Positions 578 to 26,059 of a DNA stretch of 41,693 nt are shown here, in pieces. The stretch is taken from the NCBI GenBank assembly GCA_905614365.1, contig CAJQSO010000039.1, positions 1 to 41,693 of the forward strand, in the 5' to 3' direction. The notes beneath the pieces are model-generated. The model saw nothing but the letters and a program-made list of their open reading frames with translations. It was not told the DNA's origin and made no database searches. Source of the stretch: an uncultured Candidatus Thioglobus sp. Lineage in GTDB: Bacteria; Pseudomonadota; Gammaproteobacteria; PS1; Pseudothioglobaceae. The position numbers were made by a program, and so were the translations under genes. Position 1 is the stretch's first letter. The number at the start of each line of letters is the position of its first letter.

Positions 578-589
578 CTGGAGAACATT

Positions 590-2770: not shown

Positions 2771-2777
2771 TAAATAA

Positions 2778-3347
2778 ATGCTACCTAGGCCAGCAAAGCG
2801 AGATTTAAAACATAATAGAGATATCACAGGTAAGGGCTATAAAAGGGATGATGGGCTTTGGGACGTTGAGGTTTTCCTAATTGATAGCAAGACATATTCC
2901 TTTGAAAATATGCATAGAGGCTACATTAGTGCTGGAGAGCCCCTTCATGATATGGCTGTTAGGCTAACTCTTGATGATGACAGGAAAATTATCGATATAG
3001 AGGCAGTAATTAATGCATCTCCATACAATATTTGTCCACAGGCCGTAAAAAATTGTCAAAACTTAAAAGGTGAGTATTTAATTTCAGGCTTTAACAGGAA
3101 AGTTATAAAAGCAATGGGTGGTGAAAAAGGATGCAGGCATATCACTGACTTATTGGCTTATGCAGGAACGATTGCTTATCAAACCCTTTGGAAAGAGAAA
3201 ACTGGTGATGAAACTAATACTATTTCTTTAGAGGAAGCCAAATCAATAGAAAAGAAATTTACAAACTCTTGTTTTGCATTTAAGAAAGATGGAGAGGTTT
3301 ATAATCAGTACAAAGAAATATTAATAAATAAGATAGAGAAACGTTAA
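2778..3347 (+). CDS. DUF2889 family protein of unknown function
   Basis: This 189-residue soluble protein matches the DUF2889 pattern from memory: YKRDDGLWDVEV near the N-terminus, AGEPLHDMAVRLT at 52-64, EAVINASPYNICP at 75-87 and GCRHITDLL at 118-126. No biochemical function is established for the family that I know of. His58, Cys86, Cys119 and His121 fall in the most conserved blocks and could form a metal or catalytic site; this is inference. It lies 7 bp downstream of the nitronate-monooxygenase-like gene and 22 bp upstream of fadD, all on one strand, so it belongs to the acyl-CoA operon. There is no signal peptide or membrane segment. Confidence 0.82.
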   Translation: MLPRPAKRDLKHNRDITGKGYKRDDGLWDVEVFLIDSKTYSFENMHRGYISAGEPLHDMAVRLTLDDDRKIIDIEAVINASPYNICPQAVKNCQNLKGEYLISGFNRKVIKAMGGEKGCRHITDLLAYAGTIAYQTLWKEKTGDETNTISLEEAKSIEKKFTNSCFAFKKDGEVYNQYKEILINKIEKR

Positions 3348-3369
3348 TAACGAGCATAAGGGGAAAAGC

Positions 3370-5019
3370 ATGGAAAAAGTCATACCAAATAAATTTGAAG
3401 AAACAGAGTTTTTTAAAGAGCATGGTAACTTAGTAGAGTTTTTTGATAACTGCTGTAAAGAGCATAATGGCAAAATGGCTTTTGAAAGCTTTGGTGTTGA
3501 AATTTCATATGAAGATCTTTCAGAAAAAGTAAATGCTTTTGCCTCTTGGCTGACTAACAATTTCCAGGCAGGAGATAGGATAGCTGTGATGATGCCAAAT
3601 ATGCTTGCCTACCCAATAATTGTATATGGCGCCTTGAAAGCTGGAATCGTTGTTGTTAATGTTAATCCTCTCTATACGCAAAGAGAATTAGAGCATGTTC
3701 TTAAAGATAGTGAAGCTAAAGTATTGGCAGTTTGGGAGGGCGTTGCAAATGTAGTAGAGAAGTCTAATCTTGCGAATGTAGAAAAAGTAATGATTACAAC
3801 TGTTGGCGATCTTCTTGGATTTAAAGGGAAGATTATTAACTTTGTAGCTAGAAAAGTTAAAAAGTTAGTACCTAAATTTAACATTGATAACGCTGTTATG
3901 TTTAATAAAGTATTAAGTGACAACTTAGGATCAAATCCAGTTAAAGTTGATATATCTATTGATAGTACTGCATTTCTTCAATACACTGGAGGCACAACAG
4001 GAGTTTCAAAGGGCGCAGTTTTGTCCCACCGAAATATCCTTGCAAATATTATTCAGGCGTTTTTTACTATTGATCCAAAAATGTATGATGAATCAAGAAA
4101 TGAACAGAGAATTGCCATCTGTCCACTACCTCTTTATCATATATTTGCATTAACCGTTCACAACTTTATGCTATTTCATATTGGTGGAAAAACTGTTTTA
4201 ATTACTAACCCAAGGGATCTTAAGACTTTTGTTTCATTAATGAAAAAACATAAGTTTCATATGATTTCTGGCGTAAATACTCTTTATGAGGCACTATTAA
4301 ATTATGATGGCTTTAAGGAGTTAGATTTTAGTAACTTGCTTATGTCATTAAGCGGCGGAATGGCTGCTTTAGATACTACTGCCAAAAGGTGGCATGAAGC
4401 TACTAAATCTGTCATTTGGCAAGCATATGGACTAACAGAGACCTCTCCTTTGGTGAGCGTTAATGATTATAAGCAAACTGAATTTACTGGCTCTGTAGGC
4501 TTGCCAGCTGCATTTACTGAAATTGAAATTCGAGATGAAGATAATAATGTTTTAACTGAAACTAATGCTGTTGGAGAGCTCTGCGTTCGCGGTCCTCAAG
4601 TTATGAGTGGCTATTGGAATTCAGAAGTTTCGGGTCTTGATGAAAATAATTGGTTCATGACAGGTGATATTGCTCGAATAGATGAAACTAATAATATTTT
4701 CATTGTTGATCGTAAAAAAGATATGATTATCGTGTCTGGATTTAATGTTTATCCAAATGAGGTAGAGGCAGTTGTAAATGAACACCCTGCTGTTCTTGAG
4801 TGTGGCTGCGTTGGAATTGAGGGTGAAGGTTCTCAAGAGCTTGTTAAAGTATTTATAGTTCTTCATGAGGGACAAACATTGTCTGAAGAGGAAATCATTA
4901 GTTTTTGCCGTGAAAAATTAACAGCATATAAAGTGCCTAAGCATATTGAGTTTATTAAGGAAATTCCTAAAACAAATGTTGGTAAAGTTCTTAGAAGAGA
5001 GTTGAAGACTGGGTCTTAA
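3370..5019 (+). CDS. fadD: Long-chain fatty acid-CoA ligase
   Basis: This ATP-dependent AMP-forming ligase activates free fatty acids to acyl-CoA via an acyl-adenylate. The 549-residue length fits FadD. In order it shows the phosphate-binding loop YTGGTTGVSKGA at about 204-216, the adenylate motif YGLTETSP, MTGDIARID, the hinge motif DRKKDMIIVSGFNVYPNEVE and the C-terminal catalytic lysine region in NVGKVLRREL. A strong AAGGGG Shine-Dalgarno (3358-3363) precedes the ATG. The stop overlaps the start of the acetoacetate-CoA ligase as TAATG. It supplies acyl-CoA to the dehydrogenase/hydratase and thiolase encoded just upstream. A medium-chain or aromatic acid substrate cannot be excluded, but FadD is the most likely call. 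Confidence 0.92.
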   Translation: MEKVIPNKFEETEFFKEHGNLVEFFDNCCKEHNGKMAFESFGVEISYEDLSEKVNAFASWLTNNFQAGDRIAVMMPNMLAYPIIVYGALKAGIVVVNVNPLYTQRELEHVLKDSEAKVLAVWEGVANVVEKSNLANVEKVMITTVGDLLGFKGKIINFVARKVKKLVPKFNIDNAVMFNKVLSDNLGSNPVKVDISIDSTAFLQYTGGTTGVSKGAVLSHRNILANIIQAFFTIDPKMYDESRNEQRIAICPLPLYHIFALTVHNFMLFHIGGKTVLITNPRDLKTFVSLMKKHKFHMISGVNTLYEALLNYDGFKELDFSNLLMSLSGGMAALDTTAKRWHEATKSVIWQAYGLTETSPLVSVNDYKQTEFTGSVGLPAAFTEIEIRDEDNNVLTETNAVGELCVRGPQVMSGYWNSEVSGLDENNWFMTGDIARIDETNNIFIVDRKKDMIIVSGFNVYPNEVEAVVNEHPAVLECGCVGIEGEGSQELVKVFIVLHEGQTLSEEEIISFCREKLTAYKVPKHIEFIKEIPKTNVGKVLRRELKTGS

Positions 5020-6971
5020 TGAATGAAATACTTTGGAAGCCCACTTTAAGTGAAATAGAGGATTCTCAGGCATGGGAGTTTATTCAAGAAGCTAATATTA
5101 AGTTTAATATAAGTCTAGAAAATTTTCATGACTTATATAATTGGTCATGTAAGTTCCCTGAATCTTTTTGGGAATTATTTTGGAGTTATTCTAAAATTAT
5201 TGCAAGTAAGGACTCTAAAAAAGTTCTGAAAAATAGTGATGATTTTTTAGGCTCAGAATGGTTCTCAGATTCAAAATTAAATTTTGCAAACAATCTTCTA
5301 TCTAAACGAGATCAAACACCCGCAATAATTTTTTGGGGTGAGGATAAGCATAAAAGTTCTCTAACGTTCGACGAATTGTATAATCAGGTCTCAAGACTCT
5401 CTCATTGGCTTCAGGAGAATGGTGTTATAAAAGGTGACCGCGTTGCTGGTTTTCTTCCTAATATGCCAGAAGCAGTGGTTTCAATGTTGGCAGCTTCAAG
5501 TATTGGGGCAATTTGGACATCCTGCTCTCCTGATTTTGGAGTTCAAGGAGTCCTAGATCGCTTTGGTCAAGTTAAGCCTAAAATATTTATTTGTGTAGAT
5601 GCTTACCTCTATAACGGAAAGGTGTTTAATTGCCTTGAAAAGAATGCAGAGATAATATCTAGACTGCCTTCTATTGAGAGTACTTTATTGGTTCGTTATA
5701 TTGATGATCAAGTCTCTTTAAATGAGTCTAATTCGATTTTTGCTTTCGATGAGATTGTTAATCAGAGTGCAACGCCTGAATTAAATTTTGAATCTGTTAA
5801 GTTCAATGACCCACTCTATATTTTATTTTCGTCAGGAACTACTGGCGTTCCAAAATGTATTGTTCATGGAGTTGGAGGGACGCTAATTCAACATAAAAAA
5901 GAGCACACTCTTCACTGTGACATTAAAGAGGGTGAAAGGGTCTTTTATTTTTCTACTTGTGGCTGGATGATGTGGAATTGGCTTGTGAGTAGTTTAGCCT
6001 CGGGCGCAACAATAATGCTCTATGACGGCTCGCCAATATTAAAGCACAATACTAGTATTTTGTTTGACTATGCGGCGCAAGAAAAAATTAATGTTATGGG
6101 TGTATCTGCAAAATTTTTAGATACTTGCAGAAAAATAAATCTCAATCCAAATGTATCTCACAATTTAGATACTTTAAGAATGCTGCTTTCTACAGGATCA
6201 GTATTAAGTCCTGATTGTTTTGATTATGTTTATAAATATGTAAAAGAAAAAATATGTTTGTCTTCTATTTCTGGAGGAACTGATATTGTTTCATGTTTTG
6301 TATTGGGCTCTTCAATACTTCCAGTGTATCGAAGTGAATTGCAAACTCGAGGCCTTGGTCTTTCTGTTGAAGTTTGGAATGAACTAGGTGAATCAGTTGT
6401 TGGAGAAAAGGGTGAGCTTGTTTGCACTAATACTTTTCCTTCAAAACCAATAATGTTTTGGAACGATAAAAATATGTCTAAATATAGAAGTTCATATTTT
6501 GAACGCTACTCTAATGTTTGGTGTCATGGTGATTATGTAAAACTCATGGAGACGGGTGGGATGATTTTTTATGGAAGGTCAGATACAACCCTTAATCGAG
6601 ATGGAGTGAGAATTGGAACAGCTGAAATATATCGACAAGTTGAAATACTAAATGAAGTATTAGAGTCTGTGGTTGTTGAGCAGGCATTTGATGATGACTC
6701 ACGAATCATCTTATTTGTAAAGTTGAATGATGATCAGCAATTGAGCGATGAACTTAAAAATAAAATAGTTCATCAAATTAGAAGCAATACTTCACCTAGA
6801 CATGTTCCAGATGTAATCATTCAGGTCTCTGATATTCCTAGAACAAAGAGCGGTAAAATTGTTGAATTAGCCGTTCAAAAAGCAATTAGTAATCTACCTA
6901 TTGATAATAAGACTGCTCTAGAAAATCCAGAAGCTCTTCAGGAGTTTTACCAACATAAAGAGCTTCAATGA
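5019..6971 (+). CDS. aacS: Acetoacetate-CoA ligase (acetoacetyl-CoA synthetase)
   Basis: This enzyme converts acetoacetate, ATP and CoA to acetoacetyl-CoA, which thiolase can split to two acetyl-CoA. At 650 residues it has the size of acetoacetyl-CoA synthetases. It carries the N-terminal ACS-type lid region, the loop LFSSGTTGVPKCIVHG around residue 270, the family-typical STCGWMMWNWLVSSL, and the C-terminal PRTKSGKIVELAVQ with the adenylation lysine. Its ATG overlaps the fadD stop by one base, indicating translational coupling. Acetoacetate can come from ketone bodies, amino acids or the dehydrocarnitine cleavage step of carnitine catabolism. The last is notable because a carnitine-type gene module lies at 13144-17731. 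This is the last gene of the operon; a promoter-like gap follows. Confidence 0.92.
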   Translation: MNEILWKPTLSEIEDSQAWEFIQEANIKFNISLENFHDLYNWSCKFPESFWELFWSYSKIIASKDSKKVLKNSDDFLGSEWFSDSKLNFANNLLSKRDQTPAIIFWGEDKHKSSLTFDELYNQVSRLSHWLQENGVIKGDRVAGFLPNMPEAVVSMLAASSIGAIWTSCSPDFGVQGVLDRFGQVKPKIFICVDAYLYNGKVFNCLEKNAEIISRLPSIESTLLVRYIDDQVSLNESNSIFAFDEIVNQSATPELNFESVKFNDPLYILFSSGTTGVPKCIVHGVGGTLIQHKKEHTLHCDIKEGERVFYFSTCGWMMWNWLVSSLASGATIMLYDGSPILKHNTSILFDYAAQEKINVMGVSAKFLDTCRKINLNPNVSHNLDTLRMLLSTGSVLSPDCFDYVYKYVKEKICLSSISGGTDIVSCFVLGSSILPVYRSELQTRGLGLSVEVWNELGESVVGEKGELVCTNTFPSKPIMFWNDKNMSKYRSSYFERYSNVWCHGDYVKLMETGGMIFYGRSDTTLNRDGVRIGTAEIYRQVEILNEVLESVVVEQAFDDDSRIILFVKLNDDQQLSDELKNKIVHQIRSNTSPRHVPDVIIQVSDIPRTKSGKIVELAVQKAISNLPIDNKTALENPEALQEFYQHKELQ

Positions 6972-12454: not shown

Positions 12455-13049
12455 TATTCACTTCAAATATTTTATCTAGATAGTTACAAAGTTCAGGTAC
12501 TCCTTCTTTTTTGAGTGATGAGAAAAGCTGAACACTTATTGATGGATAATCTTTGATTGCTTTTAAGACAGCAAGTTTAGCTGAGCTTGCAGCTCCCTTT
12601 TTAAGTTTATCAGATTTTGTTAGTAATATATTTGTAGGGACTTTATTAGTAATAGACCACTCAAGCATCATTTGATCAAAAGGCTTTAACGGGTGGCGAC
12701 AGTCCATTACTAGTATTGCAGCACGCATGCACTTTCTATTATCAAAATATTCACTCATATTTTTATGCCAGTTTTGTTTTACAGCATCTGGAACCTTGGC
12801 ATATCCATAACCAGGTAAATCAACAAGTCTTCGATCTTTATCAAGTTCAAAAAAGACTAAATGCTGAGTTCTCCCTGGAGTTCTACTAACTTTCGCTAAT
12901 TTTTTTTGTTCTGTGAGTGTATTAATTGCACTAGATTTACCTGCATTAGAGCGACCTGCAAAAATAACTTCATATCCAGCATCTTCTGGACAGCCCTTAA
13001 TGGAAGGACAAGATAAAAGAAACTTTGCTTTGCGATAGAAATTATGCAT
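12444..13049 (-). CDS. engB: Ribosome biogenesis GTP-binding protein EngB (YihA/YsxC)
   Basis: This essential GTPase acts in late assembly of the 50S ribosomal subunit. The 201-residue protein shows the G1 motif GRSNAGKSS at about 32-40, G3 in [12 protein letters not shown]4 as TKSDK, and the typical N-terminal [26 protein letters not shown]. The length is normal for the family. It is the first gene of a two-gene minus-strand operon with the AddB-like nuclease, overlapping it by 11 bp. The upstream gap to the divergent thioesterase holds a minus-strand TATAAT at 13084-13079. Confidence 0.95.
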
Positions 13050-13078
13050 AATTCAAGTAGTTCGGTGCAGACGTAGTC

Positions 13079-13128
13079 ATTATATAATCTTTATTAATTG
13101 ACATCTCATTACATTCTAATTCTATTAG
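13079..13128. promoter_or_regulatory. Divergent promoter region engB / carnitine-type operon
   Basis: The 94-bp divergent gap contains, for the plus strand, a perfect TTGACA at 13098-13103 with TCTATT at 13121-13126 (17-bp spacing). For the minus strand it contains TATAAT at 13084-13079. A direct repeat TGACATC occurs at 13099-13105 and again at 13135-13141, bracketing the plus-strand -10 region and the start codon; it may be an operator. No Shine-Dalgarno is visible before the thioesterase ATG. Confidence 0.5.
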
Positions 13129-13143
13129 GCATTCTGACATCAT

Positions 13144-13671
13144 ATGGATAATGAAATATATCTTAAAAGAAAGTACCAATACTTTTCTCTAGAGGATAAT
13201 CTTAACTCCCCTCTAGAGCTATATCAAGCCGAAGTTCAGTCAGGATGGATTGACTACAATGGTCACATGAGTGAGTCATTTTATCTGTACGCCTTTGGGG
13301 ATGCTTCAGACGCTTTATTTCAATACATTGGCGTTGACAATGACTATCGCCTAGCGGGCAAGTCTTTCTATACCGTTGAAACGCATATAAACTTTTATCT
13401 GGAGGTTTCAAAGGGTGAGCCTCTTAAGTTTACTACTCAAATACTTGGTTTAGATGCAAAAAAACTCCATATTTTTCATCAAATGTTCCATGCTAAAAGT
13501 GGTGACTTATTAGCTACAACTGAGCAAATGCTAGTCCATGTGGATATGAATAAAGGGGAGGCATGTCAGATTGAGCCAGCTGTTGAAGATATACTTAGAA
13601 AGATTTGGGTTTATCATCAAAAATTGCCTGTACCCAAGCAAAAAGGCCGTGTTATGGCGATTAAAAAATAA
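13144..13671 (+). CDS. Hot-dog thioesterase of the carnitine-catabolism (betainyl-CoA thioesterase) type
   Basis: This is a 175-residue single hot-dog-fold acyl-CoA thioesterase. The WIDYNGHMSESFY block (Asp37, His41, Glu44), FGDASDALF, YTVETHINF and AKKLHIFHQMF closely recall the thioesterase of L-carnitine dehydrogenase operons and of carnitine dehydrogenase-thioesterase fusions, which hydrolyses betainyl-CoA to glycine betaine. It is the first gene of the 13144-17731 operon, 29 bp before the acyl-CoA dehydrogenase. In this setting it could hydrolyse betainyl-CoA or carnitinyl-CoA. Neither carnitine dehydrogenase nor the beta-keto-acid cleavage enzyme is adjacent. Family is good; substrate is inferred from resemblance and neighbours. 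No signal peptide, so cytoplasmic. Confidence 0.8.
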   Translation: MDNEIYLKRKYQYFSLEDNLNSPLELYQAEVQSGWIDYNGHMSESFYLYAFGDASDALFQYIGVDNDYRLAGKSFYTVETHINFYLEVSKGEPLKFTTQILGLDAKKLHIFHQMFHAKSGDLLATTEQMLVHVDMNKGEACQIEPAVEDILRKIWVYHQKLPVPKQKGRVMAIKK

Positions 13672-13700
13672 AGTAAGTCAATTAAATTGAAGGAGTAGAG

Positions 13701-14858
13701 ATGAATTTTGGCCTTTCCAATGAACAAGAAATGATTATTGATTCAGTTAAAATTTTTGTGGAGCAGGAGCTTTATCCTCATGAAGATGGAGTAGAAAAAA
13801 CTAATAAAATTGACAAATCTCTAGCTGAAAATATTAAACAAAAGGCAATTGAACAAGGACTTTATGCTACTAATATGCCTGAAATACATGGTGGTGGTGG
13901 GCTTGATACTCTAACCTTATGCCTTTTAGAGAAGGAGTTGGGTAAGGCAAATTTTGGCCTTCAGTATATTGTAGCAAGGCCTAGTAATATATTACTGGCT
14001 TGCCAAGGGGCACAAATTAAAGATTATTTAATTCCAACGATTCGAGGAGAAAAAGTTGAATGTCTTGCCATGACAGAGCCTAATGCAGGGTCAGATGTTC
14101 GATCCATGCAGTGTAAGGCTGAGAGAGATGGTGAGTCTTTTATAATTAATGGCTCAAAGCATTTTATTAGTCATGCAGATGTTGCTGACTACGTTATATT
14201 GTTTGCTGCTTCTGGAACTGAGAAGACTTCCAGGGGGGAAAGAAAGAAAATAACTAGCTTTTTGGTTGATATAGGAACCCCAGGATTTTCTGTAGAGCCT
14301 GGATATAAAAGTGTTTCTCATAGGGGTTATCATAACTTTATTCTTAATTTTGATAATTGTCGTGTCCATGAATCTCAAGTACTAGGTGAGGTAGATCATG
14401 GATTCGATGTGGCAAATGAGTGGCTTGGAGCTACCCGATTATCGGTTGCAGCAATGTGTCTTGGCAGAGCTGAAAGAGCGTTGAAAATTGCAACAGAATG
14501 GGCTGCAACACGTGAGCAATTTGGCCAAAAGATTGGTAAATTTCAAGGAGTTTCTTTTAAGCTTGCTGACATGTCAATGGAGCTTCAGGCTGCGGAGCTA
14601 TTGACTTTAAAAGCAGCCTGGAAGGATACTCAAGGAGAAATGACTAATAGTGATGCTGCAATGGCAAAACTTAAGGCTACAGAGACTCTTGCGATGATCT
14701 CTGATGAAGCCATTCAAATACTTGGCGGTATGGGCCTGATGGAAGAGCTCCCTTTGGAGAGGATATGGAGAGATCATCGAGTTGAACGAATTTGGGATGG
14801 CACGAGTGAAATTCAAAGACATATTATCTCAAGGTCACTACTAAGACCATTTGAGTAG
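13701..14858 (+). CDS. Acyl-CoA dehydrogenase, probably gamma-butyrobetainyl-CoA dehydrogenase-like
   Basis: This is a 385-residue FAD acyl-CoA dehydrogenase. It has AMTEPNAGSDVRSM at about 116-129, the REQFGQKIGKFQ block at about 273-284, QILGGMGLMEELPLERIWRD, and ERIWDGTSEIQRHI at the C-terminus. The residue aligned with the catalytic Glu of medium-chain enzymes is Asp366, in a WDGTSEIQ motif. AAGGAG at 13690-13695 is a strong Shine-Dalgarno. The CaiD gene two genes downstream makes oxidation of gamma-butyrobetainyl-CoA to crotonobetainyl-CoA the most likely reaction, with electrons passed to ETF. A CaiA-like reductase role is the reverse option; a short-chain acyl-CoA substrate cannot be excluded. 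Confidence 0.88.
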   Translation: MNFGLSNEQEMIIDSVKIFVEQELYPHEDGVEKTNKIDKSLAENIKQKAIEQGLYATNMPEIHGGGGLDTLTLCLLEKELGKANFGLQYIVARPSNILLACQGAQIKDYLIPTIRGEKVECLAMTEPNAGSDVRSMQCKAERDGESFIINGSKHFISHADVADYVILFAASGTEKTSRGERKKITSFLVDIGTPGFSVEPGYKSVSHRGYHNFILNFDNCRVHESQVLGEVDHGFDVANEWLGATRLSVAAMCLGRAERALKIATEWAATREQFGQKIGKFQGVSFKLADMSMELQAAELLTLKAAWKDTQGEMTNSDAAMAKLKATETLAMISDEAIQILGGMGLMEELPLERIWRDHRVERIWDGTSEIQRHIISRSLLRPFE

Positions 14859-14864
14859 TCTTTT

Positions 14865-16922
14865 ATGAATAGAGCTAATTTGAGTCGGTTAATATCACCA
14901 AAGTCAATAGCTGTGGTTGGAAATCGTGGTGCTGATTTTGCGATTAGAGAGAGTAAAAAATTAGGCTATAACCACAAGATTTGGGCAATTCATCCAACCT
15001 TAGATTTTCTTGAGGGAATTAAGTGTTACAGAGATATCAAAGACCTTCCTGAGGTTCCAGATGCAACTTTTATTGCTGTTAATGCAGAATCTGCTATAGA
15101 TATCATTGCTGATTTAAAGTCGATTGGAGGTGGCGGTGCAGTTTTATATGCCTCTGGTTTTGGAGAGGTTGGAGAAAAAGGAATAAAACGAAATCAGAGA
15201 CTACTAGAGGCTGCCGATGGAATGCCAGTAATTGGACCGAACTGTTATGGCTTTATCAATAGTCTTGATAGAGTTGCGTTGTGGCCAGATGTTCATGGAT
15301 GTGAGGCAGTTTCGAGCGGGGTTGCAATTATTACCCAGAGCGGTAATATAGGTCTTAACATTACGATGCAATCGATCGGCCTGCCAATTGCCTATATGTT
15401 CACTCTTGGCAATCAAACAAATACTAATATCGCAGATATTATTCATGCGATGCTCGATGATAATAGAGTCAGTGCAATAGGTCTTCATATTGAAGGAATT
15501 TCAGATATTAAATCGTTTGAGATAGCTGCTCAAAGAGCTATTAATAAAAAAATTCCAATTGTTGCAATTAAGTCAGGACGAACTGACGCTTCTGCAAAGA
15601 TTGCACTAAGTCACACTAGCTCAATGTCAGGTTCAGACCAACTTTTTAGTGTATTTTTTGAACGACTAGGAATAGCTAGGGTAAATACTGTTCCAGAGTT
15701 TCTTGAGACTTTAAAATTGCTAAGCATTATAGGAGTTATTGATCATAACGGAGTTGCATCTATGAGCTGTTCTGGTGGAGAAGCAGGAATGATGGCAGAC
15801 TTAATTGATGGACTGGATATCAATTTTCCTAGCCTTGATGATCTTCATAAAGAAAGAGTCAAACTAGCACTTAATGATTTTGTTGAGGTAGATAATCCAC
15901 TTGATTATCATACGTTTATTTGGGGTGATCGAAAAAGAACTTCAGAATGTTTTAAGCAGATGATTAGTGGAAATTTTGCTGCGACAATGTTGTTATTAGA
16001 CTGGCCAAGAACTCAAGAATCAGAGCAAAAAGAATGGGACTTAAGCTTATTGGCTCTCTCTGACGCGATTTCTGGAACAGGTGAGAAGGCTATAGTACTG
16101 GCTTCAATTGCTGATTGTATGCCTAAAAGGATTATAAAAAAATGCCAAAAATATGGAATCGCACCCATGATTGGGATGGATATTTGCTTAAAAGCTCTTA
16201 ATCACTCTTATAGAATTGGACTCGCTTTTGAGAATAGCTCAATGCAATCGATAGAGATATTACGCTCATTATCTCACCCCTCTAAAATATCAAATTTAAC
16301 AGAATTTGAAGGCAAAAAATTGTTGAAAAAATATGATGTTCCTATTCCTGATGGTGAGATTGTTACTAGCACTTCTGAAGCTTTAATGGCTGCTGAAAAA
16401 ATATATTACCCCCTAACGCTAAAGGTTTCAAATGCCGATTTAGCTCATAAAACAGAGTTAGGCGCTGTTCTATTGGACATTAATGATCCTATAGTCCTTG
16501 AGAAAGCTTGTCAGGATTTATTTAAGATTGGCCCATCCCTTCTTCTTGAAAAAATGGTTCAAGATTCAGTTACTGAATTGATTATTGGAATGGCTAATGA
16601 TCCAATTTTTGGAAAATACATTATTATTGGAAGCGGTGGTATCTTGGTAGAGCTTTTTAAAGATACTATTCCATTACTATTTCCAGTTAGTAGAGAGGAT
16701 GTTTCACTAGCCTTATCAAAATTAAAAGTTTTTCCAATAATTAAAGGCTTTAGAAACAATCCAGAGGGAGATATTGAGGCGATAATTAATTGTGTAATGT
16801 CTGTTGTGAAACTAAACAATGAAAATGACATTATTGAATTGGATATTAATCCATTATTAGTATTAAAGAGAGGGAACGGAGTTATTGCTGTAGACGCTCT
16901 TATTAAGTTAAACTTAGGCTAA
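14865..16922 (+). CDS. Fused ADP-forming acyl-CoA synthetase (acetate-CoA ligase family, alpha+beta)
   Basis: This 685-residue NDP-forming acyl-CoA synthetase has both subunits fused. The CoA-binding Rossmann domain covers about 1-130 ([10 protein letters not shown] at 10-19, IGPNCYGF at 123-130). The succinyl-CoA-synthetase-like domain follows (ITQSGNIG at 156-163), with the phosphorylated His250 in [12 protein letters not shown]. The C-terminal ATP-grasp domain begins near [18 protein letters not shown] and contains [17 protein letters not shown]. It starts 6 bp after the acyl-CoA dehydrogenase and 23 bp before caiD, so it is the likely activating enzyme of the module, replacing the CaiC ligase or CaiB CoA-transferase of enteric carnitine metabolism. 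This would cost only one phosphoanhydride bond. Substrate is inferred. Confidence 0.9.
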
Positions 16923-16945
16923 TCAGCCTTTTAATTGGGAAATTT

Positions 16946-17731
16946 ATGAACAATAGTGTTATTTGCAAAATCTATGATGACGTAATGTTGATTACCTTAG
17001 ACCGACCAAAAGCTAATGCAATTGATGCTATAACGAGTCATGCGCTCGGTGACGCATTTATTAGTTTTAGAGATAATAATAAATTACGAGTAGCTGTTAT
17101 TACAGGCGCAGGCGATCGTTTTTTTTGTGGAGGCTGGGATTTAAAGGCCGCATCTGAGGGTGAGGCAATTAATGCAGATTTTGGATTGGGTGGTTTTGCT
17201 GGGTTAACAGAGCTGTGGGATCTTGATAAACCTGTCATTGCCGCAGTAAATGGACTAGCAGTTGGAGGAGGCTTTGAGTTAGCACTAGCGGCTGATCTTA
17301 TAATTGCAGCAGATACTGCAGAGTTTTTTGTTCCCGAAGCTACTCTAGGCATTATTCCTGATAGTGGAGGTATTTTAAGATTGCCGCGACGCTTGCCATC
17401 TGCAGTAGCAATGGACATGCTTATGACAGGTCGACGAATGGCCATAGATGAAGCAAAACACTTTGGCCTAGTTAATCGAAGCTGCCCTTTAAGCGAATTA
17501 GAAAATTTAGCAATAGAGTGGGCACATCAAATTGCTAAGTCTGCACCGCTTTCTTTAGCAGCTATAAAATCTGTTGTAAGAAAAACAGATCAAATGGATT
17601 TAGAAAGTGCTTATAAAATTATGCGATCTGGAAAAATTGAGGCTTATCAGAAGATGTTAAATTCTGAAGATGCAAAAGAAGGTCCTAAAGCTTTTTCTGA
17701 AAAGAGATCTCCAGTCTGGAAAGGGAGGTAA
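16946..17731 (+). CDS. caiD: Crotonobetainyl-CoA hydratase (carnitinyl-CoA dehydratase) CaiD
   Basis: This is a crotonase-fold enzyme interconverting crotonobetainyl-CoA and L-carnitinyl-CoA. It is recognisably close to E. coli CaiD along its whole length: [14 protein letters not shown] at 18-31, [13 protein letters not shown] at 62-74, [25 protein letters not shown] at 79-103 (compare within family), and the ending [11 protein letters not shown]. Its 261 residues match the CaiD length. Both catalytic glutamates keep the E. coli numbering, Glu111 in GGGFEL and Glu131 in VPEATLG. It is the last gene of the module, 23 bp after the ADP-forming synthetase. The specific CaiD call rests on these CaiD-type blocks rather than on the general crotonase fold, and it anchors the interpretation of the cluster. 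Confidence 0.88.
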
Positions 17732-17761
17732 TTGTTAACAATGCAATACTCCAGGTTTTGA

Positions 17762-17783
17762 ATAAACTAGAAATGGGTATAAT
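17762..17783 (+). promoter_or_regulatory. Candidate promoter of cytochrome c gene
   Basis: TATAAT at 17778-17783 is preceded by a TTTTGA-like -35 about 16 bp upstream. It lies 34 bp before the ATG at 17817, in the 85-bp gap after caiD. The palindrome TTGTTAACAA also sits near 17732-17741. The gap separates the carnitine-type operon from the cytochrome genes. Confidence 0.5.
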
Positions 17784-17797
17784 TCATTTAATGAATT
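17781..17797. repeat. Perfect 17-nt dyad overlapping the cytochrome c promoter
   Basis: AATTCATT (17781-17788), a single T, then AATGAATT (17790-17797) form a perfect 8+1+8 palindrome. It overlaps the end of the -10 box and the expected transcription start. Such placement is typical of a repressor operator, but AT-rich palindromes also arise by chance. Confidence 0.6.
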
Positions 17798-17816
17798 ATG
17801 TTGGGACTTAGATTCA

Positions 17817-18128
17817 ATGAAAAGATATTTTTTAACAGCGGCTACAATTGCTTTAGCTATTTGTTCGCTAAGCTCAAATGCTAATAGTGAAGGCGAAGCT
17901 ATGTATAGTGCTTTGGGCTGTGTAAGTTGTCATGGTCAAAATGGGCATTCGACAGATGAAAATGCACCTTCTTTAGCTGGAAAAGATGCTGATTGGATTG
18001 TTCAGCAATTAGAATATTTTCAGTCAGGTGAACGACAAAATTCATACATGAATGCAATGGCTCCAATGGCTGAAGGGTTTGAACGATCCATTGCTGAATA
18101 CCTTTCTATTCAAAATTCTAAATACTAA
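17817..18128 (+). CDS. Periplasmic monohaem cytochrome c (class I)
   Basis: This 103-residue precursor has a signal peptide (residues 1 to about 23, ending SSNANS) and one haem-binding motif CVSCH at about 38-42. The probable axial Met is in the AMAPMAEG region at about 80-86. The layout CHGQNGHSTDENAPSLAGKDADWIVQQLEYFQSGER resembles one half of a cytochrome c4. It carries electrons in the periplasm, probably from the bc1 complex to a terminal oxidase. It is followed after 86 bp by a dihaem c4 with its own promoter. The function as an electron carrier is secure by family; partners are unknown. Confidence 0.9.
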   Translation: MKRYFLTAATIALAICSLSSNANSEGEAMYSALGCVSCHGQNGHSTDENAPSLAGKDADWIVQQLEYFQSGERQNSYMNAMAPMAEGFERSIAEYLSIQNSKY

Positions 18129-18158
18129 TATTAATAGATAAAACTGTCCTAATTGAAG

Positions 18159-18188
18159 TTTACGATACCATTATTTTTCACGTATAAT
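18159..18188 (+). promoter_or_regulatory. Promoter of cytochrome c4 gene
   Basis: TTTACG at 18159-18164 and TATAAT at 18183-18188 are separated by 18 bp. The start codon is at 18215, with GGAG at 18204-18207 as Shine-Dalgarno. This is one of the better sigma-70-like promoters in the window. Confidence 0.6.
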
Positions 18189-18214
18189 TTCCTTGAATTT
18201 TTTGGAGATTAAGA

Positions 18215-18853
18215 ATGAAAAAGACCATTATTGTTTTAGCTTGTATATTATTTGCCTCTTTAAGCAGTCCTATTATTGCTGCAGGTGATGCTGAAGCAGG
18301 TCAAGTAAAGACTGCAACTTGTATGGGTTGCCATGGTCTTGCAGGTAATAGCAACATTCCTTCTTTTCCTAAGTTAGCTGGTCAAGGCGAGGCTTACCTT
18401 ATAAAACAATTACAGCACTTTAAGTCAGGTGAAAGAAAGAATGCAATGATGAATGGTGTTGCAGGAATGCTTTCTGAGCAAGACATGTTCGATATTGCAG
18501 CTTATTATTCAATCCAAACTATAAGTGAAAACAGCGCAAATGCAGATGCTGAAACTCTTGAACTTGGACGTAAGATTTATGTTGGTGGAAAAATGGATAC
18601 TCAAACGACAGCTTGTATTGCTTGTCATGGAGCCAAAGGTTTAGGTATTCCAACTGCAGGCTTCCCTGCAATCAGTGCTCAACATGCAGAATATACTGCT
18701 TCACAACTAAAAGCATTTCGTCAATATTCCATAAATGAACAAACAGGTTCTACAGATGTTGCTAGAGCAAATGAGATGATGGTGAATGTTGCTAAAGGTT
18801 TAACGACAGTTGAAATTGAAGCCTTGTCACAATACATAGCTGGACTTCATTAA
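18215..18853 (+). CDS. Dihaem cytochrome c4
   Basis: This 212-residue periplasmic precursor has a signal peptide (1 to about 23, ending IIAAG) and two similar cytochrome c domains, with haem motifs CMGCH at about 36-40 and CIACH at about 132-136. Each half has its own methionine region (NAMMNGVAGML and NEMMVNVAKGL). Cytochromes c4 shuttle electrons to terminal oxidases, often cbb3 or caa3 types. Good Shine-Dalgarno and promoter lie upstream. It is followed within 18 bp by three very small membrane-protein genes, which look like part of the same transcript. The family call is firm. Confidence 0.93.
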   Translation: MKKTIIVLACILFASLSSPIIAAGDAEAGQVKTATCMGCHGLAGNSNIPSFPKLAGQGEAYLIKQLQHFKSGERKNAMMNGVAGMLSEQDMFDIAAYYSIQTISENSANADAETLELGRKIYVGGKMDTQTTACIACHGAKGLGIPTAGFPAISAQHAEYTASQLKAFRQYSINEQTGSTDVARANEMMVNVAKGLTTVEIEALSQYIAGLH

Positions 18854-19485: not shown

Positions 19486-20274
19486 TTAATCCATTCTCTC
19501 AGTGTTGCCATCTACTGTCATTATTTGACCAGAAATTCTGTGTGCTTCATTTGATATTAGGAAGCTTGCCATATTTGCTATATCTTCTTTATCTACAAAA
19601 GTCTTAAGTGAGACCATCGCCTCAAAATCTTCTTTTACTTCTTTTTCAGAAGAGTTGATTAATTTGGCTTTTGACTTAATAACACGATTAATTCTATCGC
19701 CTGAAACTGATCCTGGGCAAATTGCATTTACTCTAATATTGAATTCACCAAGTTCCATCGCGAGTGACTTTGTAATTCCAATAATAGCCCATTTACTTGC
19801 AGCATAAGGAGTTCTTAATGGAAATCCAAATAGTCCAGCTGTTGAAGATAGATTAATAATTGAACCCCCCTTATTCTTCTTTAAAAGTGGAATTGCAAAC
19901 TTAGTAAAGTAGAAGTGGCTATTTAAATTTATATCAATCGTTTGCTTCCAATCCTCGATAGTTAAATCTTCCATCGGACCAGTAGGGCCAGCAATTCCAA
20001 CGTTATTGATTAGAGCATCAATACTTGTAACTTTTTGGGAGAGAGTTTTGAAATATGACTTAACTGATTCTGGATTCCCAGCATTAACATTTTCAATAAA
20101 TATCCTTTTATTAAAAAGCGGATGCTTATGAATTTCATCAATTTTTTGTTGATTAATGTCAGATAAGTAAACTGTATGGCCTTGATCTATTAAAAAAGTA
20201 GCCATACACCAACCAAGTCCATCAGCTGAAGCTGAAATGATTATATTTTTACTAACGAAATTGCCCTGAGACAT
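19486..20274 (-). CDS. Short-chain dehydrogenase/reductase (SDR), last gene of the betaine-transport operon
   Basis: This is a 262-residue NAD(P)-dependent oxidoreductase of the classical SDR type. Visible are NNVGIAG at 90-96, Ser144 in INLSSTAG, and Tyr157 and Lys161 in TPYAASKWA, the catalytic set. The N-terminal TGxxxGxG motif is altered to ISASADGLG, with Ala15 for the first Gly. Asp39 after the second strand favours NAD over NADP. Its ATG overlaps the proV stop by one base (TAATG), so it is translationally coupled to the transporter. Its substrate is therefore likely the imported quaternary amine or a product of it, for example the 3-hydroxyl of carnitine. This is inference. Confidence 0.87.
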   Translation of the reverse strand: MSQGNFVSKNIIISASADGLGWCMATFLIDQGHTVYLSDINQQKIDEIHKHPLFNKRIFIENVNAGNPESVKSYFKTLSQKVTSIDALINNVGIAGPTGPMEDLTIEDWKQTIDINLNSHFYFTKFAIPLLKKNKGGSIINLSSTAGLFGFPLRTPYAASKWAIIGITKSLAMELGEFNIRVNAICPGSVSGDRINRVIKSKAKLINSSEKEVKEDFEAMVSLKTFVDKEDIANMASFLISNEAHRISGQIMTVDGNTERMD

Positions 20275-21308
20275 TACTTTGTTTTAGTTAGGGCTTCAGA
20301 AAGTTCATTAGATGAAATATATCCAGTAGTACTTCCAGTTTTATCAATGACTTCGATTGTGGATCTATCTTTTAATACTTTTGGAATTAATTCTTCAATA
20401 AAAGTATCCTCGTCATACTTATATGTTGAAGATGGGTTAATACTAGAGGCATCAAATTTATCAATTTTAGTCATTACAGTTTTAGCTCTTAAAACTTTTG
20501 AGCGATTAACGTCTTTAACAAATGCTTTCACATAATCATCAGCTGGATTGAGGATAATATCTTCTGGCCGACCAACCTGAACTAATCGGCCACCATTTAA
20601 TATTCCTATATGATCACCTAATTTGAGTGATTCATCCAAATCATGGGTAATAAAGACAATAGTTTTTTTGAGTTTTGACTGAAGATCAACAAGCTGAGTT
20701 TGCATTTCACTTCTAATCAATGGATCTAGAGCACTAAAAGCTTCATCCATTAGAAGGATTTGTGGATCAGTTGCAAGAGCCCTTGCAAGTCCAACTCTTT
20801 GCTGCATCCCGCCAGATAATTGCGCAGGATATTGATTTTCAAACCCTTGAAGTCCTACAGCATCAATTTGTCCCTGAGCAATCTCCTTTCTTTGGCTCTC
20901 AGGAACCTCCTGAATTTCCAGTCCATAAGCAACATTTTCAATTATTGTTTTATGGGGGAATAATCCAAATCGCTGAAAAACCATGCTCATTGTTTTTTTT
21001 CTGAACTCTAAAATTTCTTTTTCATCTAGACTTAATACATCAACATCATTTACAAGAACTTGTCCTGCAGTTGGATCAATTAATCTATTAATATGCCTAA
21101 TCAAAGTTGACTTACCTGATCCAGATAGACCCATACAAACAAAAATTTCACCTTCTTCGATAGATAATGAAACGTTATCCAAGCCAACAGTATGTCCAGT
21201 CTCTTCTAGAACTTGCTCTTTACCTGCTCCATTTTGGACCATTGATAAAACCTGGTCAGGTTGAGGACCAAATATTTTATAAATATTTTTAATTTCGATT
21301 TTTGACAT
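20274..21308 (-). CDS. proV: Glycine betaine/proline-type ABC transporter ATP-binding protein ProV
   Basis: This is the ATPase of a betaine importer. The 344 residues include the N-terminal extension IYKIFGPQPDQVLSMVQNG typical of ProV/OpuAA, Walker A GLSGSGKST at about 59-67, the signature LSGGMQQRVGLARAL, Walker B ILLMDEAFSALD and FITHDLDE with the switch histidine. After residue 270 only about 75 residues remain, enough for one shortened CBS-like segment, where E. coli ProV (about 400 aa) has two. It sits between proW (9 bp upstream) and the SDR (1-bp overlap). The reduced C-terminus may weaken osmotic or ionic gating and fit uptake for catabolism; that is inference. Confidence 0.93.
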   Translation of the reverse strand: MSKIEIKNIYKIFGPQPDQVLSMVQNGAGKEQVLEETGHTVGLDNVSLSIEEGEIFVCMGLSGSGKSTLIRHINRLIDPTAGQVLVNDVDVLSLDEKEILEFRKKTMSMVFQRFGLFPHKTIIENVAYGLEIQEVPESQRKEIAQGQIDAVGLQGFENQYPAQLSGGMQQRVGLARALATDPQILLMDEAFSALDPLIRSEMQTQLVDLQSKLKKTIVFITHDLDESLKLGDHIGILNGGRLVQVGRPEDIILNPADDYVKAFVKDVNRSKVLRAKTVMTKIDKFDASSINPSSTYKYDEDTFIEELIPKVLKDRSTIEVIDKTGSTTGYISSNELSEALTKTK

Positions 21309-21317
21309 AATAGGGGT

Positions 21318-22319
21318 TTATTCTGGTGGTTTATTTCTATCTTGTATTCTTTTACCATAAGCCTGTGTAATTCTATCTAACACAATTGCTAATAGAACAA
21401 TTGCAAGACCGGCTTCAGTAGCTTTTCCAACATTTAGCTGTTGAAGTCCAAGTAAAACTTCATCTCCAAGGCCTCGAGTTCCTATCATTGAGGCAATTAC
21501 AACCATAGCTAGTGCCATCATTGTGCATTGGTTGATTCCTTGCATAATATTAGGTAGGGCAAGAGGTAACTGTACTCCAAGTAATTTTTGTTTTGGGCTA
21601 GCCCCAAATGCTTCAGCTGCCTCGATAACTTCGGTATCAACTAGGGTAATTCCAAGATCAGTCAATCGAACTAATGGAGGAACCGCATAAATAACAGTTG
21701 CAATAATTGCTGGAACTGCACCTAAACCAAACAGCATAATTCCTGGGATTAGGTAACAGAAGCTTGGGATTGTTTGCATTAGATCAAGAACTGGTAATAT
21801 TGCATTTCGAACTTTATTATTTCGGGACATTGCAATACCCAATGGAATACCAATAATAATACAAATAATAATTCCAATTATCATAATAGAGGTTGTTTCT
21901 ATGGCTTTATCCCAAAACTTTGGATGCAGGAAGCCTATAAAAAATGTACAAAAACCAACAAAAACGGTGGTTCCTATTTTTCTGCCACTTGAAAAGAAAA
22001 CAACTGCAACAACGAGTGCAATAACTACTGGCCAAGGTAAAACGATTAAGAATTTCTTAAGAGAGAGAATTGCACCAAGAAGAAAATCGTTAATTACTTC
22101 AAAGTAAATTCCATATTTTTCATTAAAGACTTTAAAGCCGTCATTAATCCACTTCATTAGAGGTATATCTAGCCATTTAGGCCAATCATAGAGCCAACTT
22201 AAATCAGTAAAAAGCTCCATAACACTATCAGGCTTTCTTTTTGATGAGTTATAACTTATGACTAATAGCCATACAAAGAATATTGGGAAAGTAAAGTATG
22301 TGAGAATTTTTCTTATCAT
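21318..22319 (-). CDS. proW: Glycine betaine/proline-type ABC transporter permease ProW
   Basis: This is the membrane subunit of the betaine importer, with an N-terminal hydrophobic region and then a standard binding-protein-dependent permease domain. It contains IIIGIPLGIAMSRN, a GLGAVPAIIATVIYAVPPLVRLT block, and the EAAEAFGASPKQKLLGVQLPLALP coupling-helix motif (EAA loop). I place the start at the ATG at 22319 (333 aa). An upstream in-frame TTG at 22349 lies in the loop of the proX-proW hairpin and is unlikely. No clear Shine-Dalgarno is visible. The gene lies 58 bp after proX and 9 bp before proV. Confidence 0.92.
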   Translation of the reverse strand: MIRKILTYFTFPIFFVWLLVISYNSSKRKPDSVMELFTDLSWLYDWPKWLDIPLMKWINDGFKVFNEKYGIYFEVINDFLLGAILSLKKFLIVLPWPVVIALVVAVVFFSSGRKIGTTVFVGFCTFFIGFLHPKFWDKAIETTSIMIIGIIICIIIGIPLGIAMSRNNKVRNAILPVLDLMQTIPSFCYLIPGIMLFGLGAVPAIIATVIYAVPPLVRLTDLGITLVDTEVIEAAEAFGASPKQKLLGVQLPLALPNIMQGINQCTMMALAMVVIASMIGTRGLGDEVLLGLQQLNVGKATEAGLAIVLLAIVLDRITQAYGKRIQDRNKPPE

Positions 22320-22332
22320 AATGATTTTGATG

Positions 22333-22363
22333 AAAAAAAGAGCCCACAAGTGAGCTCTTTTTT
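22333..22363 (-). terminator. Intra-operon hairpin with T tract between proX and proW (attenuator/terminator)
   Basis: Reading the minus strand, proX is followed after 15 bases by AAAAAAGAGC (22363-22354), a short loop region, then GCTCTTTTTT (22343-22334). The 10-bp arms are perfect, can be extended by a CAC/GTG pairing near the loop, and end in a T run. This is a rho-independent terminator shape inside the operon. Partial read-through would give more binding protein than permease and ATPase, as is common for periplasmic-binding-protein transporters. Confidence 0.75.
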
Positions 22364-22377
22364 ATATTAAGATTAAC

Positions 22378-23394
22378 TTATAGAGCTCCAGATACTTTAG
22401 CAGCAACGTCTGCTGGTACCCAAGATTTCCATGAATCATCATTCGCTAAATACTCCATTGCAGTTAGCTCCATATCACCATCTGACTCATCTTCATAGAA
22501 TGCAAGTAGTCTGTTAACTTGCGCAGTTGGTATGCTATAAGCCTCTAAAAATTCAGTCTCTGCAGGATGAGCATCGGCCCATGAAGAAAGAACTGACTTG
22601 TCTAGTGACATATCTCTGTACTCAACTCCACAAGTTGGTACCCATGCATCCTCACCATTGGCTTTGATGTCTTCAACGACAACTTGCATAGATGCCCAGC
22701 ACTCTGCGTTAAATGGTGGCTCAGCTAATCTAACTAGATCAACTTTACCCATGAGACCAGTTGGCGCCCAATAGTAAGTAAAGATTGGCTGCTTTTTGGC
22801 AAACGCACCTGCGATTGCTGCATCAAGTGCACCACCTGAACCTGGATCAAAGTTAGTATAGTATTTATCTAATCCATAAGCTTTTTGTTTAACCAGGTTA
22901 ATTGTGTAGCAAGTCCAGCCACCAATACAACTAGTCATTCTTCCCATTGATGGGTTCTCAGGATCACTAAATAAGGCAGCAATTTCTGGCCTATTCATAT
23001 CTAGAACATTTGTAAGATTGTACTTATCAGCAGTTGTTTTATCAACATAGAATGCTTGCTGAGAGTCAGGAGTATTTACTCCTAGATTTCTCACAGTTCC
23101 ATCTGCTTCATGACCATTATAAGTATCTGCAATGTTGTCATACCAAAGCTCAGTAACTACATCAAGCTGTCCATCATAGTGCGCAGCCATAATAGGCGTT
23201 GTACTTCCTTTAGTTATACTAACTTCACATCCATAACCATGCTCCAAGATGAAGCCGGCAATAGCGGTATGAATATTAGCACTACTCCAGTCAAAATCAG
23301 CTAGTCTAGCTTTTCCGCAGTCTGCACTTACAATCGAAGGCATAAGACTTAAAGAAATTGCTGAGATAGCTAATACTTTATTTATTAGTTTCAT
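22378..23394 (-). CDS. proX: Glycine betaine/proline-type ABC transporter substrate-binding protein ProX
   Basis: This is the periplasmic binding protein of the importer, 338 residues, with a signal peptide (1 to about 24, ending PSIVSA) and an OpuAC-type domain. Features are KGSTTPIMAAHYDGQLDVVTELW (split by function across 61-84), CIGGWTCYTINL with paired cysteines, FDPGSGGALDAAIAGAF, FTYYWAPTGLMG and the C-terminal YLANDDSWKSWVPADVA. Trp and Tyr residues in these blocks are candidates for the aromatic box that binds quaternary ammonium groups. A strong AAGGAGA Shine-Dalgarno (23405-23399) precedes the ATG. It is the first gene of the proX-proW-proV-SDR operon. Glycine betaine, carnitine, choline or another betaine could be the ligand. 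Confidence 0.9.
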   Translation of the reverse strand: MKLINKVLAISAISLSLMPSIVSADCGKARLADFDWSSANIHTAIAGFILEHGYGCEVSITKGSTTPIMAAHYDGQLDVVTELWYDNIADTYNGHEADGTVRNLGVNTPDSQQAFYVDKTTADKYNLTNVLDMNRPEIAALFSDPENPSMGRMTSCIGGWTCYTINLVKQKAYGLDKYYTNFDPGSGGALDAAIAGAFAKKQPIFTYYWAPTGLMGKVDLVRLAEPPFNAECWASMQVVVEDIKANGEDAWVPTCGVEYRDMSLDKSVLSSWADAHPAETEFLEAYSIPTAQVNRLLAFYEDESDGDMELTAMEYLANDDSWKSWVPADVAAKVSGAL

Positions 23395-23503
23395 TTTTTC
23401 TCCTTAGGTTTTAAAACAAATCCTTATTAAATATAAGAATTGATTTTTAGTATATATAAAATTTCAGTTCAGGTTGAATTATATTAAATTAATCAACACT
23501 TTG

Positions 23504-23524
23504 TATTAATGCAAAACATTAATA
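23504..23524. repeat. Perfect inverted repeat upstream of proX
   Basis: TATTAATG (23504-23511), loop CAAAA, and CATTAATA (23517-23524) form a perfect 8-bp dyad. It lies about 110 bp upstream of the proX start and 15 bp beyond the stop of the upstream TauE/SafE gene on the same strand. There is no T tract, so an operator or a weak 3'-end hairpin are both possible. The rest of the 144-bp gap is AT-rich with no confident promoter. Confidence 0.55.
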
Positions 23525-23538
23525 TTTAAGCCATATTT

Positions 23539-24282
23539 TTAAATTAATAAAACTAGCCCTGCCGTTAAAATTAATCCTAAAATTGTCCTTCGGAAAACTT
23601 CTCCATTAAGTATATGATAAATTTTCACACCAAGCCAAGAGCCAAGGATTAAAGCTGGAAGTATCTTGAGCAGGTCATAAGCCATTTGAAGCGTGTATAG
23701 GCCAGCAATAGCAAAACTTATTACTGCCATAATGCTGGTAATAAAAATAAAAGGTTCATAGGTTCCTCGCTGCGTATTTTTCGGAAGTTTTTGGAGGCCA
23801 ACCCAGATAGTTGGGAGAAGTCCACCAAGAGCTGCAAAGCCACCCATAAATCCACTGATTAAGCCAATAAAACTGTCAATTGACTTACGTGTATTTACCT
23901 TAATCGAAAAGTTCTTACTTATAAGCATTATTAGCGCATAAAAAACTAAAAATACTCCTATCGATACTTTGAATATTTTAGGATCAGTAAGTTTTAGTAG
24001 AAGCATTCCAAGAGGTATACCAATAATACCAAATATAATAAATGGCCTAAGTTTTGAAAAATCAAGAGTTTTTCTTAATTTATACATCGGCGCGCCTGAA
24101 ATTAGCAAGCAAGTAATAATGTTTAAAGGAATAGCGTGTGCAGGATCCAAAATATGCAACCAAAAAGCATTAAGAACAAGTCCAGAACCAAATCCCATAG
24201 CACCTTGAATAAATGCCGCGGTAAATGCCCCTAGTAATAAAATTAATAAATAGATAGACGGATCAAAGTCAGAAATGATCAT
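23539..24282 (-). CDS. Second TauE/SafE family membrane protein
   Basis: This 247-residue integral membrane protein belongs to the TauE/SafE (DUF81) family: LLLGAFTAAFIQGAMGFGSGLVLN near the N-terminus and GLISGFMGGFAALGGLLPTIW in the second half are the paired glycine-rich blocks. I choose the ATG at 24282 (MIISDFDPS). A longer frame reaches a TTG at 24348, but that adds a polar, unusual 22-residue tail and would overlap the betA-side promoter region. It is upstream of proX on the same strand, 144 bp apart, and divergent from the GMC oxidoreductase. It differs clearly from the paralogue at 7661-8446. Substrate unknown; an anion produced by betaine catabolism is possible. Confidence 0.78.
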   Translation of the reverse strand: MIISDFDPSIYLLILLLGAFTAAFIQGAMGFGSGLVLNAFWLHILDPAHAIPLNIITCLLISGAPMYKLRKTLDFSKLRPFIIFGIIGIPLGMLLLKLTDPKIFKVSIGVFLVFYALIMLISKNFSIKVNTRKSIDSFIGLISGFMGGFAALGGLLPTIWVGLQKLPKNTQRGTYEPFIFITSIMAVISFAIAGLYTLQMAYDLLKILPALILGSWLGVKIYHILNGEVFRRTILGLILTAGLVLLI

Positions 24283-24409
24283 AATAGGATTAGTCAAAAT
24301 TGTAAATTGAAGTATATAGATTATTTTGTTATTTTTATTTGATTTCAATATAATGATGACGTTTAATATTTCTATTTTTCTAGCTGTATGAATTCTTTAT
24401 TTTTCTATT

Positions 24410-26053: not shown

Positions 26054-26059
26054 TTATTT

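Follow-up and report, generated by a model that had tools for sequence, protein, structure and literature searches.

Among the closest described systems, the BcoAB protein of S. meliloti is called a gamma-butyrobetaine:CoA ligase, and together with ATP, Mg and CoA it made gamma-butyrobetainyl-CoA in vitro, as confirmed by mass spectrometry (PMC8364193). A dehydrogenase of S. meliloti is described as oxidising carnitine and as turning betainyl-CoA into glycine betaine (PMC12482172), and the cai pathway of E. coli is reported to run reductively (PMC2131755). Here, we present a four-gene operon at positions 13144-17731 of a 41,693 nt contig (CAJQSO010000039.1, C39 of its genome; this whole stretch is called the window below) from an uncultured Candidatus Thioglobus sp., whose genome assembly (GCA_905614365.1) comprises 1.14 Mb and is 75% complete. 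The operon very probably encodes the upper half of a rhizobial-type pathway for the aerobic breakdown of gamma-butyrobetaine, with the lower half located on contig C19 of the same genome.

The operon and its enzyme families

All four genes are on the forward strand. The first encodes a stand-alone hot-dog thioesterase (TE; 13144..13671, 175 aa, 4HBT_2), here termed TE1 and predicted to act on carnitinyl-CoA. It is followed by an acyl-CoA dehydrogenase (ACAD; 13701..14858, 385 aa, with the N, M and C domains of the family), the predicted gamma-butyrobetainyl-CoA dehydrogenase, and by a fused NDP-forming acyl-CoA synthetase (ACD; 14865..16922, 685 aa), the predicted gamma-butyrobetaine--CoA ligase, which joins CoA_binding_2, Succ_CoA_lig and ATP-grasp_5 domains in a single chain. 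The last gene encodes a predicted CaiD-type crotonobetainyl-CoA hydratase (16946..17731, 261 aa, ECH_1, crotonase). The intergenic gaps are 29, 6 and 23 bp, and open reading frames, strands, families and gaps all agree with an earlier note on this DNA, which had described the four genes as tightly packed. The same note had placed them behind a TTGACA promoter. This hexamer is indeed present, at 13098-13103, but the promoter itself found no support: a scan of 13000-18300 listed no promoter-like pair on the + strand before 13144, and the 24 promoter-like sites in that interval, compared with 17.3 (sd 4.8) in shuffled sequences, are no clear excess.

We compared the operon with 40 related loci from SUP05/Thioglobus, Oceanospirillaceae and other gammaproteobacteria, Aestuariispira, Nisaea, Shimia and SAR116. 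An ACAD gene lies directly 5′ of the synthetase in 36 of them (the rest being three contig ends and one other gene), and a CaiD-cluster gene lies directly 3′ in 29, the recurring linkage that the earlier note had suggested looking for; the other loci have a contig end (4), a regulator (4) or a gene on the opposite strand (3) in this place. With the ACAD and the CaiD so consistently flanking the synthetase, the operon is not a chance arrangement. The second gene upstream is a thioesterase in 26/40 loci, with five contig ends. At L021, L035, L037 and L038 a GbdR-like regulator cluster gene follows ACAD-ACD in place of CaiD, and the one hydratase near the L037 operon groups with PaaG.

The nearest homologues found for the synthetase share 95%, 88% and 86% identity, the first two coming from records of uncultured SUP05 cluster bacteria. 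In a tree of 52 rows (leaving out L001 and everything up to 600 aa in length), 43 operon-type synthetases, including the rhizobial ones, form a single clade (support 98/97) with nine other ACDs outside; long branches are present in this tree as well as in the TE and hydratase trees, and midpoint rooting was used for drawing only. A Mesorhizobium homologue with 31-32% identity falls just outside the clade and has no adjoining ACAD or CaiD. The synthetase of the window shows the features of the ACD superfamily, namely CoA-binding, ligase and ATP-grasp domains and a phospho-acceptor histidine: His250 aligns with the phospho-acceptor His292 of the dimethylsulfoniopropionate (DMSP) lyase DddX and is a histidine in 43/43 operon-type synthetases. 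The structure model has a mean pLDDT of 88.8, falling below 50 at 240-256, the loop that contains His250. Judging from the family, ADP rather than AMP would be the product. Tyr128, Trp140, Tyr348 and Trp353 are invariant in 43/43 operon-type synthetases and Trp391 (window numbering) is found in 41/43, each of the five occurring in at most one of the nine other ACDs, and we put forward the idea that these aromatic residues might form a cage for the trimethylammonium group.

The hydratase shares 60.2% identity with E. coli K-12 CaiD over 261 residues, with Glu111 and Glu131 conserved in both, so that the closeness to the E. coli enzyme claimed earlier is borne out. Identity is 46-50% with the CaiDs of six rhizobial and roseobacter operons and 28-34% with E. 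coli PaaF, PaaG, MenB, ScpB, FadJ and FadB. In a tree of 51 rows (without L001, L002 and anything up to 220 aa long), E. coli CaiD falls together with the operon hydratases in a single clade of 37 rows (100/100), which excludes these six E. coli proteins and also the hydratases adjoining other ADP-forming synthetases. The window protein is thus placed with CaiD and not among the general enoyl-CoA hydratases, the position that the earlier note had named as speaking against its proposal.

The lower pathway and the stand-alone thioesterase

On contig C19 of the same genome we found a beta-keto acid cleavage enzyme (G000:C19:5683-6549, 314.8 bits; hereafter cleavage enzyme) and, adjoining it, a fusion of carnitine 3-dehydrogenase with a TE domain (G000:C19:6576-8042, 712 bits, cut-off 592). 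A search of 34 genomes, made up of this one and 33 of the 40 from which the related loci come, matched the cleavage enzyme in 28 and the carnitine dehydrogenase in 27 at more than 550 bits, 20 of these above the cut-off. Near the lower-pathway locus, some related genomes carry a GbdR-like regulator (220/480 bits), an MttB-family methyltransferase (264/525 bits) and an FAD/GcvT-type protein. MttB-family genes number two to seven per genome in the five genomes searched, and homologues of mtgC, the gene of a core subunit of glycine betaine demethylation, are reported from SUP05 among other clades (PMC12478193).

Elsewhere, both halves can stand together. Plasmids of Rhizobium and Sinorhizobium have the order GlxA-type regulator, cleavage enzyme, carnitine 3-dehydrogenase, ACAD, ACD, CaiD and ABC transporter, and a Neorhizobium plasmid operon has the same order without the transporter. 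Of the 159 plasmid records that match the synthetase at E 1e-60 or better, 130 belong to Rhizobium. Among the 60 dehydrogenase matches listed, out of 214 plasmid records, 34 are also among the listed synthetase matches, and in 34/34 of these pairs the dehydrogenase lies upstream on the strand of the synthetase, its end 1179-1198 bp away, which leaves space for one ACAD; as 33 of the 34 are from Rhizobium, the pairs are not independent. Alloyangia and Palleronia show the order ACAD-ACD-CaiD-cleavage enzyme-dehydrogenase, and in Ruegeria conchae the core lies beside a GlxA-type regulator and near a trimethylamine-methyltransferase-family gene, with neither dehydrogenase nor cleavage enzyme within the 14 kb shown. 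In the S. meliloti Ak57 pSymB record (L124), an ACD match in two pieces, with no listed coding sequence, lies between ACAD and caiD. From this locus and its name, BcoAB appears to be a synthetase of the same type as the ACD. On plasmids this synthetase is annotated as 'acetate--CoA ligase family protein', and the neighbourhood now supplies a likely substrate for it.

Across 83 genomes of the family, the synthetase occurs in 25 and the carnitine dehydrogenase in 26: 21 both, four the synthetase only, five the dehydrogenase only and 53 neither (p = 2e-11, for genomes that are related to each other and with a signal lying wholly between genera, two of eleven). The four synthetase-only genomes are 57-77% complete; among those with the dehydrogenase only, G063 (93% complete) has a CaiD match and G053 a TE1.

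In the proposed route, the ACD would convert gamma-butyrobetaine, CoA and ATP into gamma-butyrobetainyl-CoA via a phospho-histidine at His250, presumably releasing ADP, and the ACAD would oxidise this ester to crotonobetainyl-CoA, which CaiD would hydrate to L-carnitinyl-CoA and the stand-alone TE would cleave to L-carnitine. At the C19 locus, the dehydrogenase would then form 3-dehydrocarnitine, the cleavage enzyme would split it into betainyl-CoA and acetoacetate, and the fused TE domain would release glycine betaine from betainyl-CoA, while the acetoacetate might be activated by an acetoacetate--CoA ligase encoded in the window. A passage from gamma-butyrobetaine through carnitinyl-CoA to a free betaine had already been proposed from the operon; gene context in several proteobacterial groups supports it, but the operon itself covers the upper half only. 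Gamma-butyrobetaine, upstream of carnitine and glycine betaine, thereby joins the likely diet of a marine lineage.

TE1 may offer a clue to how the two halves came to be separate. Its sole NCBIfam match is to the C-terminal part (339-492 of 495) of the carnitine 3-dehydrogenase model NF005716, with 168.9 bits. In a TE tree of 51 rows, which left out L001 and sequences shorter than 140 aa and included 13 fused domains taken by filter or named, none from the Nisaea locus, 27 stand-alone TE1 proteins fall into one group (98/79) that joins the TE domain of the dehydrogenase fusion of Aestuariispira (99/98). The TE domains of the 12 other fusions, among them that of the window's own genome, cluster apart from these (87/93), and the Oceanospirillaceae and related loci carry a third thioesterase type, TE2. 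In Aestuariispira the order is cleavage enzyme - dehydrogenase/TE - ACAD - ACD - CaiD, which places the fusion directly before the ACAD, the slot held by TE1 in SUP05. This grouping and the shared position, from a single intermediate genome, suggest a fission scenario. We tentatively propose, giving it slightly less than even weight, that TE1 could be the remnant TE domain of an Aestuariispira-like operon whose front was lost or moved, now serving as a dedicated carnitinyl-CoA thioesterase that would let heterotrophic SUP05 relatives use gamma-butyrobetaine for carnitine and glycine betaine, as a counterpart to the dioxygenase route in Arctic SAR11.

Alternative substrates and direction of the pathway

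The solved structure closest to the ACD is that of DddX (7cm9), both by sequence (241.5 bits) and by fold, where it is the best PDB match to the model (TM 0.90, 26% identity over 698 columns). The best NCBIfam match of the ACAD is the acryloyl-CoA reductase AcrC (265.8 bits, cut-off 640), and DMSP resembles betaines. One could thus imagine a DMSP module, in which the ACD cleaves DMSP into dimethyl sulfide and acryloyl-CoA and the ACAD, CaiD and TE process the latter. Against this, the ACD and DddX share only 28% identity by BLASTP, DddX falls outside the clade of 43 rows (its branch is long and the exact placement unsure), the hydratase is of the CaiD type, and a carnitine dehydrogenase and a cleavage enzyme accompany the operon; we regard a DMSP module as highly improbable. 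The ATP-dependent DMSP lyase is described with Trp391 for cation-pi binding and Glu432 as the base (PMC8163506). A MAFFT alignment pairs DddX Trp391 with His, Gln or Asn and Glu432 mostly with Gln, Pro or Ala, whereas the BLASTP alignment gives different positions, pairing Trp391 with Trp353 (43/43) and Glu432 with position 390, an Asp or Glu in 38/43. By fold or distant similarity alone, the ACD could be mistaken for DddX. A generic short-chain acid module, with synthetase, hydratase and ACAD serving some other acid, was weighed as well. Five other plasmid clusters (L133, L134, L135, L136 and L137), which are unrelated, have ADP-forming synthetases beside hydratases and/or ACADs, and hence such company alone names no substrate. 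The synthetases and hydratases of these clusters fall outside the operon clades, however, and the CaiD type together with the carnitine neighbours is specific, leaving a module for another acid with very little probability.

The close similarity of CaiD to the E. coli enzyme could also indicate an E. coli-like operation, in which carnitine is reduced to gamma-butyrobetaine as an electron sink. We consider this most unlikely. As the earlier note had pointed out, neither CaiB nor CaiC is in the operon, and in six genomes searched no protein reached the CaiC cut-off (best 275.5/651 bits; own genome 256.2). A class III CoA-transferase (PF02515), sought in eight genomes, was absent from the window's own 75%-complete genome, from G024 and from G041, a single-contig relative that is 99% complete, and was present in the other five, with one each in G040, G039 and G061, seven in G022 and three in G021. 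The ACAD differs in type from E. coli CaiA: it is only 29% identical to that protein, compared with 58-60% to the ACADs of six rhizobial and roseobacter operons, and scores 191.8 bits with the CaiA model NF002885 (cut-off 540). At position 366, which we take to be the usual site of the catalytic base, 41/41 aligned operon ACADs have Asp and CaiA has Gly. The electron-transfer flavoprotein (ETF)-quinone oxidoreductase was found in 5/5 genomes searched, and carnitine oxidation genes occur in the same genome and, elsewhere, in the same operon. The lower pathway, an operon without CaiB and CaiC, the ETF-quinone oxidoreductase and the dissimilarity to CaiA together suggest the oxidative direction. 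The DMSP lyase, the reductive cai pathway and the generic acid module were all rejected on the evidence given above.

Several points weigh against a gamma-butyrobetaine pathway at this locus. The substrates named here are predictions from genes; among solved structures, the one most closely related to the synthetase belongs to a DMSP lyase; and BcoAB was equated with the fused synthetase from its name and locus. In 7/40 related loci no CaiD lies directly downstream even though no contig end intervenes. NF002936 (crotonobetainyl-CoA hydratase) scores the window CaiD at 381.6 bits, ahead of the next family at 240.0 and below its curated equivalog cut-off of 500, as are the operon CaiDs of Rhizobium, Alloyangia and Aestuariispira (315.1, 335.6 and 373.4 bits). 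A Paracoccus seriniphilus locus has the cleavage enzyme and dehydrogenase without ACAD-ACD-CaiD. Within the window's own genus (29 genomes), the co-occurrence of synthetase and dehydrogenase is 19/4/5/1 (both, synthetase only, dehydrogenase only, neither; p = 1), and the congener G038, 91% complete, has the carnitine dehydrogenase with no match to synthetase, CaiD or TE1.

Genomic neighbourhood and comparison with known systems

Outside the operon, the window encodes two AMP-forming activating enzymes, a FadD-like ligase (3370-5019) and the acetoacetate--CoA ligase (5019..6971, + strand; TIGR01217, 847.9 bits, cut-off 520.9). The latter could plausibly consume the acetoacetate that the lower pathway yields, and two related genomes have a homologue close to the cleavage enzyme and carnitine dehydrogenase (L108, and L112 with one that is 65% identical). 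Both ligases belong to a beta-oxidation-like run at 2-6971, consisting of a FadB-type fragment, a thiolase, two genes without an NCBIfam match at E 1e-30, and the two ligases. A ProV-ProW-ProX-type betaine/choline ABC transporter on the reverse strand (20274..23394) is a candidate importer, a role suggested by the neighbourhood only; contig ends truncate many of the 40 related loci, of which 15 have a proV-cluster gene. At L042 (SAR116), the neighbour of ACD-CaiD is a ProVWX-type transporter in the opposite orientation, whose binding protein is only 31% identical to that of the window. The region 19486-27169 comprises a divergent short-chain dehydrogenase/reductase (SDR), the ProVWX transporter, a TauE-type exporter, a GMC oxidoreductase of the choline-dehydrogenase subfamily (623 bits, cut-off 605) and a protein of the enolase superfamily; the SDR cluster has members in 17/40 related loci. 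Just 3′ of the operon (17817-18853) are two small c-type cytochrome-like proteins (CxxCH motifs, seen by eye), whose cluster was found in 18/40 related loci.

The bco gene names reportedly come from strain HK4. This strain, placed between Agrobacterium and Rhizobium (PMC2131755), is a soil organism, unlike the marine host of the window. The E. coli cai operon shares a CaiD that is 60% identical and has in addition CaiB, CaiC and CaiA, and DddX shares superfamily, fold and phospho-acceptor histidine with the ACD while standing outside its clade. The bbu cluster of Emergencia timonensis, as described in PMC8364193, resembles the operon in turning gamma-butyrobetaine into a CoA ester and in having an ACAD-family enzyme and a thioesterase, but differs in its CoA-transferases, trimethylamine elimination and anaerobic setting. 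An Arctic genomic island of SAR11, also a marine bacterium, likewise has a carnitine dehydrogenase, a cleavage enzyme and an acyl-CoA thioesterase; unlike the window, it carries gamma-butyrobetaine dioxygenase genes, and no CoA route is named in the available text of PMC12421898. A literature search linking SUP05, Thioglobus or Pseudothioglobus to carnitine or butyrobetaine gave no paper on such a route in SUP05 among the matches listed, and one under the synthetase and dehydrogenase names and that of a hydrolase had no match.

The organization described here most resembles that of the rhizobial operons, with which it shares the ACAD-ACD-CaiD core in the same order, a synthetase of the same clade and, in the same genome, the carnitine 3-dehydrogenase fusion and the cleavage enzyme. 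It differs in having the upper and lower pathways at separate loci, in being headed by a stand-alone TE and in the ProVWX type of the nearby transporter. With the rhizobial and roseobacter operons and with BcoAB described as a gamma-butyrobetaine:CoA ligase, pathway chemistry of this kind is already known; what is apparently new is its host lineage among SUP05 relatives, the split into upper and lower halves and the dedicated stand-alone thioesterase.

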